Of a DNA stretch of 64,000 bases, positions 50,899 through 54,724 are shown in pieces. Position 1 is the stretch's first letter. Each line of letters begins with the position of its first letter. The position numbers and the translations under genes were made by a program. The notes below the pieces were generated by a model. That model did no database searches and was not told the origin of the DNA. It was given only the letters and a program-made list of their open reading frames with translations. The stretch is from assembly GCF_900094575.1 (NCBI RefSeq), contig NZ_FMAE01000005.1:674092-738091 (forward strand). Direction: 5' to 3'. Source of the DNA: Bradyrhizobium yuanmingense (GTDB lineage Bacteria; Pseudomonadota; Alphaproteobacteria; Rhizobiales; Xanthobacteraceae).

Positions 50899-53800
50899 TC
50901 AGAGTTCTTCCAGCAGCGCCTTGCTTTCCTTCAAGTCGCGAACGTCGAAGCCCTCGCTGAACCAACCGTAGACCGGCGCGAGAAGACCGCGTGCTTCATC
51001 ACCCCTGTCCTGATCACGCCAGAGCCGGGCGAGACTGACGGCGGAGCGAAGTTCCCAGAGTTTCGCCTCCTGCTGGTGAGCAATCGCAATGGCGTGGCGA
51101 AACTCGGCCTCCGCATCGGCCTCCGCGCCTGGCCGAGCCCTTAGCATCAACTCGCCTCGGCGCCGATGCAGCTCGGCCTCGAACCACCGCACCCCCGATT
51201 TCTGGGTTAGTGCCAAGGCGTCGGAGAGTTGGCCGAGCCCCGTTTCATATCGTGCTCTCTTTGCCTCGGCTGCTGCGAGCTGCGCAAGGTAGAACGGAAG
51301 AGTCCATGCTGCGCCGGACGCCTGGAATCCCTCGATGCCGCGCCGCAGTAAGTCCACCCCGGCCTCGGGGTCGCCGGCTTCGGCCAGCGTCCAGCCGCGA
51401 TATGCCGTCCCCATCGCGAGAAAGAAGGCAAAGCGCTGCTCGGTGGTGAGCGCAACCAGCTCGTCCGCCCGTTGCCCAACCATGCCCGCGTCTTCGAGCA
51501 CGAAATGCAACCGGCAGGCAACGCTCAGCGCGAATGCGAGGCTGATCGGGTGCGACGAATCGCGGGCCTCTGCCAGAGCGTCACTGCTCTGCACGCGCGC
51601 CTGATCGGCGAAGCCAAGAAGGCCACACGTAAGCGAAAGGAACGAAAGCATCGCCACGCGGGCGTTTTCTGCGAACAGGGCCGTCAGAGAGCGCTGCTGC
51701 GCCGGATCGTAAAGGGCGAGCCCCCGCTCGAGATGGGTGCGCGCCAAGGCCAATTGTCCGCGATGAAGCCAGCTATCGCCGACTGCCCGATGACCGGCGA
51801 CAAGAATGGCCGCATCGTTCTGTCGCCCGGCCAAATCGAGCAGATTCTCGGCGATGCGATGCGATCGGTCCGTTTCACCACGGACGTGATAATGCACGAA
51901 CTCGCCCCAGAGTGCCTTGAGCAGATTCGGCGTGTCGTTGAGTGCCTCGCAGAGGCAACGCGCCCGGGCGTAGGCCCTGCCGGTCTCTTCGGCCGCGTGG
52001 CCCTTCGCGGCGATCAGTGCACCGCCGAGCGCGAGTTGAAGTTCAGTTTCGGTGCGCTGGCGCCCGGGAGCATCCGGCAGTTGAGATAGCAAATCAAGCG
52101 CCTTTCGCATCTGCGCGATTGCTTCTGTCATTGCCGATCGAGCCTTTGAACGCTCACCAGCCTCCTGCCAATAGGAAATCGCCTTTTCGGCCAAGCCCGC
52201 ATGTCCGCAGTGGTGGGCGAGGATTTCCGGCTGCTCTTGGATGCCTCTAGCGAGCCTCTCCTCGAGTGCGCCAGCGATCCGAGCGTGCAGCTCGCGGCGT
52301 TGGCCGCGCAACATTGTGCCGTATGCCGCATCCTGGACCAGTGCATGTTTGAACAAGAAATTGGCGTCGGGCGGCTCGACACTCCCAAACACGAGGCCGG
52401 TGTTGACCAGCCGGTCAAGCGCCGCCCGCAACTCGTTGTCGCACCGCTGTGCGACCGAGGCCAGCAGATCATAGGAGAACTCGCGGCCAATAGCTGCGCC
52501 GATTTGTGCCACCTCCTTGGCGATCGGCCCAATCCGGTCGAGCCGCGCCATCAACGAAGCATGTAGCGTGGCCGGTACGGCAAGTCCGGGCAGCGGCGCG
52601 AAGGAGATCGCTCGCGCGATACTCTGGGGGCTTGTTTCGAGCACCGCTTTGGTCAACTCCTCAACGAACAGCGGCACACCATCCGTACGTTCAGCAATTT
52701 CATTGACGATTTCGGTCGGCAGCGTCTGGCCACCTGCCACGCTCCGGATGAGCGCAGCGCCCGCATTCTGGTCGAGCCGGTTCAGCACGAGCAAGCTGAC
52801 ATGCGGCTTTCCGGTCCATACTAACTGGAACTCGGGACGGTAGGTGATCAAGACCAAAACCGGCAGGCTTGCTACGCGATCGACGGTTCGGTCCAGCAGC
52901 TCGCGCGAGCTTGGATCGATCCATTGCATGTCCTCGAACACGATCATGATTGGACGTCTTTGCGCGAGAGCTTCAAGCTGGCGAACCAGAGCGGCGAAGC
53001 TTCTCTCCTTCTTTTGTTGCGGCGTACTCGTAACCGGTAAGTATAGATTATCGTTGGGGATCGACAGAAACTCGGCCAGGATCGCCGCGTCCTCGTTGGG
53101 CGACAATGCAGGCGACAGGAGCGCTCGAAGTTTGTCGAGCTTGGTCGTCGGTGTGTCCTCACGATCGAAGCCAGCCGCTCGCTGGAGTTGTGCGATGAAG
53201 GGGTAAAGCGCGCTTTCCTGATGATGAGGCGAGCAGAAGTAGCGCAAGCAGGTGTGCGGCTCTCGCTCGATACGCTCCTGAAGAGCCGCAACGAGGCGCG
53301 ACTTGCCGATCCCCGCCTCGCCGACAAGCAGCATGACTTGACCGGTACCCGCCCGCGCATGGCGCCAGCTCCGCTCCAACCGCGCGAGGTCTTCCTCACG
53401 CCCAACCAGCGGGGCGAGGACCGAAGGGTGCAACGCCTCGAACCGGCTCTCCGCTGTTCCCTCACGAAGCACCCGCCAGGCTTGCACCGGTGCGGCGAAG
53501 CCCTTCAGCGTCACGGCGCCGAGATTCTCGTAGTCAAAGAGCCCGCCGATGAGCCGCCGCGTGTCCTCAGGGATGACTACCCCATCCGGTTCGGCGAGCG
53601 CTTGCAGTCGAGCGGCAAGGTTCGGCGTCTCGCCAAGCACGGCCTGCGCCTCCGCCGCTTCGCTGCCGATAAGGTCACCTACGACGACGAGGCCAGTCGC
53701 GAGCCCAAGACGAACCCGCAGCTCGAACTCGGCTGGGGCTCCCGGCGCGTGCCTGGTCGCGGCGATCTCAAGCGCAGCGCGCACTGCGCGTTCGGCATCG

Positions 53801-54336
53801 TCCTCATGCGCTGAAGGATGACCGAATAGTATGAGCATGCCATCGCCGATGTAACGGCTGACGGTGCCACCGTATTTGCGGACGACCGCCGCTACGCTAT
53901 CGCGGTACTCAGCAATTATGTCCCGTAGATCTTCCGGATCGAGCTTTGTCGCAAGTGCAGTCGAGCCGACGAGATCGCAGAACATCACTGTGAGCTGACG
54001 ACGCTCGGCGGAAGAACTTGGTGCGGCCAACAAGCCTGCGCGCTCCGTGACCGGTGGCACGATGGACGTCGCTGCGCCGGCCCCTCTCGTCATTTGCGGC
54101 GGTACGGTCGGCGTGAGCGCGGCACCGCAGTCGCCACAGAAGTTCTTGCCTGTCGGATTGTCGCCCCCGCACGCAGGGCAGCGAAAGAACAGCGGCGCGC
54201 CGCAATCGCCGCAGACCTTCGTTCCCTCCGGGTTGACTCTGCCGCAATTCGCGCAATCCATGGCCGCACCCGATCGAATTCCGACCGACATGAGTTCGCG
54301 TCGGTCTATGGGCGAATCTTGAGCGCGCTCTTTCAA
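50899..54336 (-). CDS. Class III adenylate/guanylate cyclase fused to zinc ribbons, an ATPase and TPR repeats
   Basis: Multidomain signalling protein, up to 1145 residues. Residues 28-71 hold two zinc ribbons (CANCGRVNPEGTKVCGDCGA and CPACGGDNPTGKNFCGDCGA). The cyclase domain, about 112-290, has metal ligands D121 (VMFCDLVGST) and D165 (YIGDGMLILFG) and the transition-state pair N239/R243 (PNLAARLQ). An AAA/STAND-type ATPase follows (VGREEDLARLERSW, Walker A GEAGIGKS about 339-346, Walker B MIVFEDMQWIDP), then helical TPR-like repeats to the C-terminus. A TTG at 54336 with AGGGAAG upstream is the best start; ATG at 54261 is an alternative. Ligand and output are unknown. A 29-residue membrane peptide gene precedes it. 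Confidence 0.92.
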   Translation of the reverse strand: MKERAQDSPIDRRELMSVGIRSGAAMDCANCGRVNPEGTKVCGDCGAPLFFRCPACGGDNPTGKNFCGDCGAALTPTVPPQMTRGAGAATSIVPPVTERAGLLAAPSSSAERRQLTVMFCDLVGSTALATKLDPEDLRDIIAEYRDSVAAVVRKYGGTVSRYIGDGMLILFGHPSAHEDDAERAVRAALEIAATRHAPGAPAEFELRVRLGLATGLVVVGDLIGSEAAEAQAVLGETPNLAARLQALAEPDGVVIPEDTRRLIGGLFDYENLGAVTLKGFAAPVQAWRVLREGTAESRFEALHPSVLAPLVGREEDLARLERSWRHARAGTGQVMLLVGEAGIGKSRLVAALQERIEREPHTCLRYFCSPHHQESALYPFIAQLQRAAGFDREDTPTTKLDKLRALLSPALSPNEDAAILAEFLSIPNDNLYLPVTSTPQQKKERSFAALVRQLEALAQRRPIMIVFEDMQWIDPSSRELLDRTVDRVASLPVLVLITYRPEFQLVWTGKPHVSLLVLNRLDQNAGAALIRSVAGGQTLPTEIVNEIAERTDGVPLFVEELTKAVLETSPQSIARAISFAPLPGLAVPATLHASLMARLDRIGPIAKEVAQIGAAIGREFSYDLLASVAQRCDNELRAALDRLVNTGLVFGSVEPPDANFLFKHALVQDAAYGTMLRGQRRELHARIAGALEERLARGIQEQPEILAHHCGHAGLAEKAISYWQEAGERSKARSAMTEAIAQMRKALDLLSQLPDAPGRQRTETELQLALGGALIAAKGHAAEETGRAYARARCLCEALNDTPNLLKALWGEFVHYHVRGETDRSHRIAENLLDLAGRQNDAAILVAGHRAVGDSWLHRGQLALARTHLERGLALYDPAQQRSLTALFAENARVAMLSFLSLTCGLLGFADQARVQSSDALAEARDSSHPISLAFALSVACRLHFVLEDAGMVGQRADELVALTTEQRFAFFLAMGTAYRGWTLAEAGDPEAGVDLLRRGIEGFQASGAAWTLPFYLAQLAAAEAKRARYETGLGQLSDALALTQKSGVRWFEAELHRRRGELMLRARPGAEADAEAEFRHAIAIAHQQEAKLWELRSAVSLARLWRDQDRGDEARGLLAPVYGWFSEGFDVRDLKESKALLEEL

Positions 54337-54356
54337 GATTCTCTTCCCTCAGCCGC

Positions 54357-54446
54357 CTACCAAGCGCCAAGCATGATCAAACTCACAATGACCAGGAAGT
54401 AGACACAGGCGATAGTCGCAGGGAAAATGAGCCAGCCGGGCGTCAT
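54357..54446 (-). CDS. 29-residue single-pass membrane peptide upstream of the cyclase gene
   Basis: An ATG (54446) stands five bases after GGGAGG, an almost ideal ribosome binding site. The product is hydrophobic over about residues 5-28 (WLIFPATIACVYFLVIV and on to MLGAW), enough for one membrane helix, with no charged residue. Its stop TAG lies 20 bases before the TTG of the cyclase gene, whose own binding site falls in that gap. It may be a small membrane protein acting with the cyclase, or a leader peptide that tunes its translation. It has no named family that I recognise. Confidence 0.6.
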   Translation of the reverse strand: MTPGWLIFPATIACVYFLVIVSLIMLGAW

Positions 54447-54724
54447 CGTTGCCTCCCGAGCGGTTGTCTCGAAAGCTTAAGCTGGCCGGCGCGATTAGGA
54501 TTATGAACTGGCTAACACTCTGCAACTCAAGCCCATTTTCAATCTGAGAAGGCTGACCACAGCCTGACACGACCCAAACGCGAAATTGGCAAGCCCATGA
54601 ACGACCGCCTGCCGAGTCGACGAAAAGTTCTCTCGCACGTCAGCAACCGAGCGCTTTGAGGCAAATGCAAATTTGTGAGAACGGCAGCGGTGCAAGGCCA
54701 AGGAAAACGACCACCCGCCCCGCC

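Follow-up and report, generated by a model that had tools for sequence, protein, structure and literature searches.

Introduction

KdpF and CydX/YbgT are small accessory subunits with a single transmembrane segment, and Ibs, Ldr and TisB are type I toxins. The accessible parts of two reports describe the TorE/NapE 'crutches' as small membrane proteins (PMC6134056), and the BjsR small RNAs and small ORFs of Bradyrhizobium japonicum USDA 110 as genus-restricted, multi-copy short transcripts and ORFs (PMC5082802).

Here we analysed a 64,000-nt stretch of the Bradyrhizobium yuanmingense genome (the window), in which a 29-residue hydrophobic peptide is encoded 5' of a cyclase-ATPase gene. The initial annotation had taken this peptide for a dedicated partner or leader of the cyclase. 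Comparison across the genus places it in a dispersed family, the GAW peptides, and suggests that its position beside the cyclase is incidental. The features under discussion are:

54357..54446, minus strand: gene of a 29-aa single-transmembrane-type peptide, stop codon included; A subfamily, cyclase-linked branch
54452..54457, minus strand: Shine-Dalgarno (SD) sequence GGGAGG, 5 nt 5' of the peptide ATG
54500..54525, minus strand: predicted RpoD-like promoter, TTG (54525-54523), 17 nt, CATAAT (54505-54500)
54535..54544, minus strand: conserved box GATTGAAAAT, 5' of the predicted promoter
50899..54261, minus strand: zinc ribbon - class III cyclase - AAA ATPase - TPR protein, a neighbour that we do not judge to be a functional partner

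Results

The window peptide is an uncharged, membrane-type small protein

The minus-strand ORF from ATG 54446 to TAG 54357 encodes MTPGWLIFPATIACVYFLVIVSLIMLGAW (29 residues), which contains no K, R, D or E and reaches a peak 19-residue hydropathy of 2.59. Both the uncharged hydrophobic character of the peptide and its ideal GGGAGG site (54457-54452, 5 nt from the ATG) are as initially annotated. Hydropathy, length and zero charge indicate that it probably forms one helix, which would be inserted into the membrane. Start-to-stop frames of 20-45 aa number 1,095 in the window when both strands are read and each nested start is counted separately; 25 of them carried a strong SD, and the peptide was the sole case combining a strong SD with zero charge and a membrane-type segment. 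Rfam at gathering threshold revealed only a tRNA in the whole window and nothing at the peptide locus. Searches of Pfam and NCBIfam with the window peptide returned no family at E up to 1, and another A peptide gave three Pfam matches at E 0.48-0.98, all below the cut-off. On the plus strand, antisense inside the window peptide, lies a promoter-like match (TAGACA-17-GAAAAT, 54400-54428; 9 of 12), with 0.2 such matches expected by chance in the 561-nt region scanned.

GAW peptides are dispersed over Bradyrhizobium chromosomes

When 265 Bradyrhizobium genomes were searched with a single sequence, 57 gave a match at E up to 1, in many cases a weak one. With a 26-row profile, at least 109 of the 265 were matched at E up to 0.1 (1-4 per genome among the matches listed; genome counts from profile searches are lower bounds). 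Matches in this many congeneric genomes make a chance ORF very unlikely, and on this comparative evidence the window ORF is a real gene. The suggestion that it represents a genuine and perhaps undescribed small gene is borne out in so far as the family is widespread in the genus and is fitted by no Pfam or NCBIfam model. One of the matched genomes, G027, which we take to be B. japonicum USDA 110, has family copies at 3,875,254 and 8,247,310. In 198 genomes of the bacterial family and 199 of the order, some Bradyrhizobium among them, matches beyond the genus were weak or partial (E 0.0035-0.09). Most of these lay inside long open frames and were taken as chance rather than as true members; the short-frame exceptions were a 31-aa frame in G404 (E 0.08) and a 22-aa frame in G559, the latter matched over 12 residues (E 0.005). 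A plasmid search gave two weak matches, with E of 8 and 9.

Our census, drawn from the window and 140 fetched regions, comprises 144 members at 140 loci; 60 regions had long flanks of about 4 kb, accounting for 64 members, and the other 80 had flanks of about 0.5 kb. Listed places outside the census are the frameshifted G003:C46, G201, G259:C106 and G245:C12, as well as G039 and G252. Member length is nearly constant (28 residues in 102, 29 in 19, 30 in 20, other lengths in 3), 142 of the 144 have at most two charged residues, 136 end in a C-terminal GAW and 139 are preceded by an SD-like stretch. Frequent features besides GAW are a P-D/E-W motif near the N-terminus and a mid-helix Cys.

Members were labelled A, B or C from simple patterns, and the census contains a few truncated or stop-bearing copies. 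Seven were labelled 'other', most of them B- or C-like by eye (L176 is A-like, L296 truncated and L297 outlying), and L273, despite its A label, resembles the C peptides. A profile built from A peptides only scored all 28 B (at least 17.7 bits) and all 14 C sequences (at least 23.7 bits) higher than any of 1,985 scored shuffles (best 11.4 bits), indicating that the three subfamilies are homologous. One branch within B (for example LNTPEFYAASIACLSCLTIVVMMAVGAW; L233, L247, L255-L260 and others) uses a TTG start in most members. Tandem copies occur in four loci (L127, L129, L130, L150), in each of which an A peptide is followed 125-133 nt further on by a B-like peptide with its own SD, degraded in L129. 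No description of the family was found in the accessible literature searched; GAW peptides apparently represent undescribed tiny membrane-type proteins dispersed over Bradyrhizobium chromosomes.

Purifying selection acts on all three subfamilies

We compared pN/pS among copies of each group's modal length, other copies being left out. Ratios were 0.24 (0.13-0.37, n=31) for B, 0.21 (0.10-0.35, n=14) for C and 0.30 (0.17-0.47, n=9) for A copies away from the cyclase, and a larger B set of 93 distinct sequences gave 0.33 (0.20-0.51). Differences by codon position were 1122/1432/4124 in B and 252/276/825 in C. This third-position excess in B and C, together with the low pN/pS in all three subfamilies, indicates purifying selection on each of them and, on evolutionary evidence, translation. 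The cyclase-linked branch, to which the window copy belongs, departs from this pattern: its seven intact copies gave a pN/pS of 0.64 (0.37-1.11), with differences spread almost evenly over codon positions (97/94/111), whereas 452 N-terminal cyclase codons from the same seven genomes gave about 0.23. The bootstrap interval of this branch overlaps those of the other A copies and, at its edge, of B, so constraint appears relaxed rather than absent. Constraint at the protein level is evident in A copies away from the cyclase, B and C (0.21-0.30), and weakest in the cyclase-linked branch (0.64).

A conserved upstream element marks A-type genes

In 16 of 18 aligned A copies the box GATTGAAAAT is shared, and TGTTAGC within the promoter spacer is also conserved; two A-like copies, L157 and L176, lack the upstream motif. 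We searched the 265 Bradyrhizobium genomes for GATTGAAAAT, 17 nt and TGTTAGC, allowing one mismatch. Of 21 matches, 20 precede an A-type peptide or remnant: 19 lie before an A peptide (frameshifted copies included), one before the remnant in L300 and one elsewhere (G061). L300, the one fetched region that gave no family match, retains the motif, the SD and the opening two codons, after which a different short frame follows. A reversed-pattern control gave no match in the same 265 genomes. The two motifs at their fixed distance are, in these genomes, a mark of most A-type peptide genes.

The window sequence TTG-N17-CATAAT resembles the B. japonicum promoter consensus TTG-N(16-18)-TATA as quoted in the accessible part of PMC4842269, and is predicted to act as a promoter. 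A stricter promoter scan flagged no minus-strand promoter upstream of the window peptide.

The probable cyclase start lies 95 nt from the peptide

The window peptide had been described as followed by a 20-base gap and a TTG start of the multidomain protein. In the window the reading frame from TTG 54336 is indeed open. Of the ten other cyclase loci bearing the peptide or its remnant, however, not one has a TTG at this place in the cyclase frame: the stretch contains stop codons in seven and is out of frame in three (L004, L007, L008). An ATG at 54291 heads an open frame in the window and, among these loci, in L004, L007 and L008 alone. The conserved start is ATG 54261 (MDCANCG...), which we regard as the probable start of the cyclase and which sets the gap to the peptide at 95 nt. 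Within this gap, an imperfect hairpin (GAATCTT...AAGATTC, 54314-54341) without a T tract is present in the window. We considered it as a conserved element and dismissed it, since by eye it is clear in the window and some relatives and disrupted in others.

The TPR part of the cyclase protein is taken from the initial annotation, Pfam giving no TPR match here. Against NCBIfam TIGR03903 (TOMM kinase/cyclase fusion) the protein scored 600 bits, below the 706-bit cut-off, and a Pfam search gave no kinase match. Its best 19-residue hydropathy segment, at 1.63, is borderline.

The peptide was repeatedly lost beside a retained cyclase

Among the 64 members with flanks of about 4 kb, the cyclase lies downstream of six, and it was found within 1.5 kb in 11 of 31 loci from the peptide search (two or three of the 31 being chance matches). 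Viewed from the cyclase, 10 of 21 orthologues of at least 75% identity have no peptide and four have a frameshifted one; the set mixes peptide-driven and cyclase-driven searches, so these proportions do not describe a random sample. For this count, L033, L034, L035, L036 and L041 were treated as the same genomes as L007, L009, L005, L021 and L010, having the same upstream sequence, and L082, in which no match lies upstream and the cyclase start was not located, was counted as lacking the peptide. L083/L088 (78% identity, partial) and the distant paralogues L044-L047 and L049 were left out, of which L045, L046 and L049 do appear in the cyclase tree.

Of the 14 cyclase loci below one 100/99 branch of this tree, seven have an intact peptide, four a frameshifted one and three none. 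One-base frameshifts affect L007 and L008 (a common event), L009 and L021, and within the same clade the peptide is missing beside a retained cyclase in L050 and in L032 and L043. For 24 cyclases, the tree is consistent with a single gain of the peptide followed by about five losses in which the cyclase was retained.

Over 11 cyclase loci (frameshifted copies included), diversity was 0.100 in the promoter, 0.138 in the peptide codons and 0.17-0.22 in the spacer, and the 15 nt 5' of the ATG, containing the SD, were the least diverse stretch measured (0.036). With promoter and SD varying less than the peptide codons, a role of the upstream region for the cyclase may persist; loci that lost the peptide region nonetheless retain the cyclase. 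Conservation of the peptide frame among cyclase-keeping relatives, the check proposed initially, largely fails for the link to the cyclase and leaves the peptide family standing. The window copy, as judged from these comparisons, is part of a decaying branch under relaxed constraint.

A small charged protein, X, is the recurrent neighbour of B peptides

A tblastn search placed a gene for a charged protein of about 61 residues, X (MPAIFDLLYREYCRARLAEMRKQLL...), upstream of 93 of 99 B copies in the same orientation, and likewise of four other members. The B copies without it are the second copies of the four tandem pairs, L258 and L298. In 80 resolved cases the gap between X and peptide was 51-75 nt in 72, 80-90 nt in six and 24-31 nt in two. 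X gave no match above cut-off in Pfam or NCBIfam, and its first 32 codons have a pN/pS of 0.27 (0.17-0.42). X matches occur in 189 of the 265 genus genomes (E up to 0.001), compared with at least 109 for the peptide, indicating that X can exist without it; among the 198 genomes of the bacterial family, one match falls in another genus (G425, E 7e-8). X is divergent to three A copies (L127, L128, L130) at 470-510 nt and adjoins neither most A copies nor any of the 19 C-labelled copies, so it cannot be required in cis everywhere. The window does not contain X; on another contig of the same genome, X and a B-type peptide (MNTPECYTVVVACMSCLTIIGLMAAGAW) are encoded at G000:C34:172956-173297 (L126, L301), and a second, weaker X match lies at G000:C55:5382-5531 (L310), on a contig with no peptide among the matches listed.

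In 21 of 22 C-like copies (L139-L172, L234, L241, L246, L273, L289, L290, L299), a second hydrophobic ORF of 32 residues (MREEFTSLAFLAVTVAGVALLGSGLLALVLVG) lies directly 3' of the C peptide; it is cut short in L141. At G208:C101:73511-73711 (L209, L314), a short X-like N-terminus (E 2e-5) lies just 5' of a copy of this 32-residue ORF, an arrangement that may mean that X pairs with peptides of more than one kind. A gene that is presumably TPP-enzyme-like recurs downstream of C-like peptides in eight loci. Many B copies occupy a common site, recognised by the same downstream gene cluster at 19 loci and adjoined by genes that are presumably lpxK- and kdtA-like; other B copies lie elsewhere. The next long downstream ORF was convergent in all six B loci inspected. 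By eye, no recurrent membrane-complex gene was recognised beside family copies.

Discussion

Selection in A, B and C, together with the lack of a common downstream gene, is most simply read as the signature of small accessory peptides acting in trans, and X, as the only recurrent neighbour, is the only recurrent candidate partner. We therefore favour, with modest confidence, a reading in which GAW peptides of 28-30 residues would be single-pass membrane proteins serving in trans as accessory or regulatory subunits. X, encoded just 5' of most B-type members, would be their most likely immediate partner. The A-type members would mostly be stand-alone units with a common RpoD-like promoter at several chromosomal sites. 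One such copy would have settled 5' of the cyclase-ATPase gene in an ancestor of the 14 sampled loci, where it now appears to be under relaxed constraint and has repeatedly been frameshifted or lost.

That the peptide is instead a cis-acting leader, its translation or its promoter controlling the downstream cyclase, seems quite improbable. It is true that both genes lie on the same strand only 95 nt apart, and the low diversity of promoter and SD relative to peptide codons and spacer is what such a leader would lead one to expect; however, three frameshift events and two absences left the cyclase in place, 58 of the 64 long-flank members have no cyclase downstream, and the downstream ORF is convergent at all six B loci inspected. 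A dedicated protein partner, anchoring the cyclase to the membrane, is disfavoured more strongly and appears highly improbable. Adjacency to 11 of the 21 orthologues, broken copies included, and the borderline hydropathy of the cyclase, to which an anchor could be of help, speak for it, but the peptide is missing or broken in seven of the 14 loci below the gain branch, and its pN/pS exceeds that of the cyclase codons in the same seven genomes. The proposal of a dedicated partner or leader is not supported by these counts, and the link to the cyclase is probably incidental.

A hydrophobic peptide akin to type I toxins, controlled by an unseen antisense RNA or by X, would account for several properties of the family, and we still consider it improbable. 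GAW peptides are very hydrophobic, multi-copy, dispersed and sporadic, with tandem copies in four loci and repeated frameshifts; their SD is predicted to be mostly paired (mean unpaired probability 0.20-0.35), and the window peptide contains the antisense promoter-like match. The same rule, however, finds such a match over the peptide in just four of 144 members, the window being the only A copy among them, a second simple scan found no recurrent antisense promoter, and one B group recurs at the same chromosomal site, with its downstream cluster in 19 loci. A chance ORF or conserved non-coding element would fit the near-even codon-position differences of the cyclase-linked branch; for the family as a whole it is very unlikely indeed, given the concentration of B and C differences at third positions, the near-constant length and the SD-like stretch in 139 of 144 members.

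Within the favoured reading of accessory peptides acting in trans, we tentatively raise one further possibility, to which we give a low probability: X and the GAW peptides might form a genus-specific two-piece system, in which soluble X is held or released by the membrane peptide and spreading cassettes lend their promoter to neighbouring genes, as at the cyclase.

The GAW peptides and X are two small-protein families, apparently without a name so far, in a genus of central importance for legume nitrogen fixation, and the X-peptide gene pair and the conserved upstream element provide testable material. These results also illustrate how adjacency alone can mislead: the most operon-like copy sits in the branch that is losing the gene.

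In its distribution, the GAW family resembles the BjsR RNAs and small ORFs as described in the accessible part of PMC5082802, being genus-restricted and multi-copy in Bradyrhizobium; the two family copies in G027 match none of BjsR1-BjsR10 in Table 1 of that report, provided that the numbering origin is the same. With the type I toxins Ibs, Ldr and TisB it shares short hydrophobic products, several paralogues per genome, tandem copies and repeated decay, but it differs from them in that simple scans revealed no recurrent antisense promoter and many copies follow a conserved upstream gene. Unlike KdpF and CydX, the window peptide has no Pfam or NCBIfam match at E up to 1 and no membrane-complex operon was recognised, the paralogues being dispersed, beside X or alone. 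Like KdpF, CydX/YbgT and, from what is accessible on them, TorE/NapE, the GAW peptide is tiny, has one predicted hydrophobic helix and is easily missed by annotation; those proteins are proposed to pack against a larger membrane complex, and we propose that GAW peptides may act in a similar mode.
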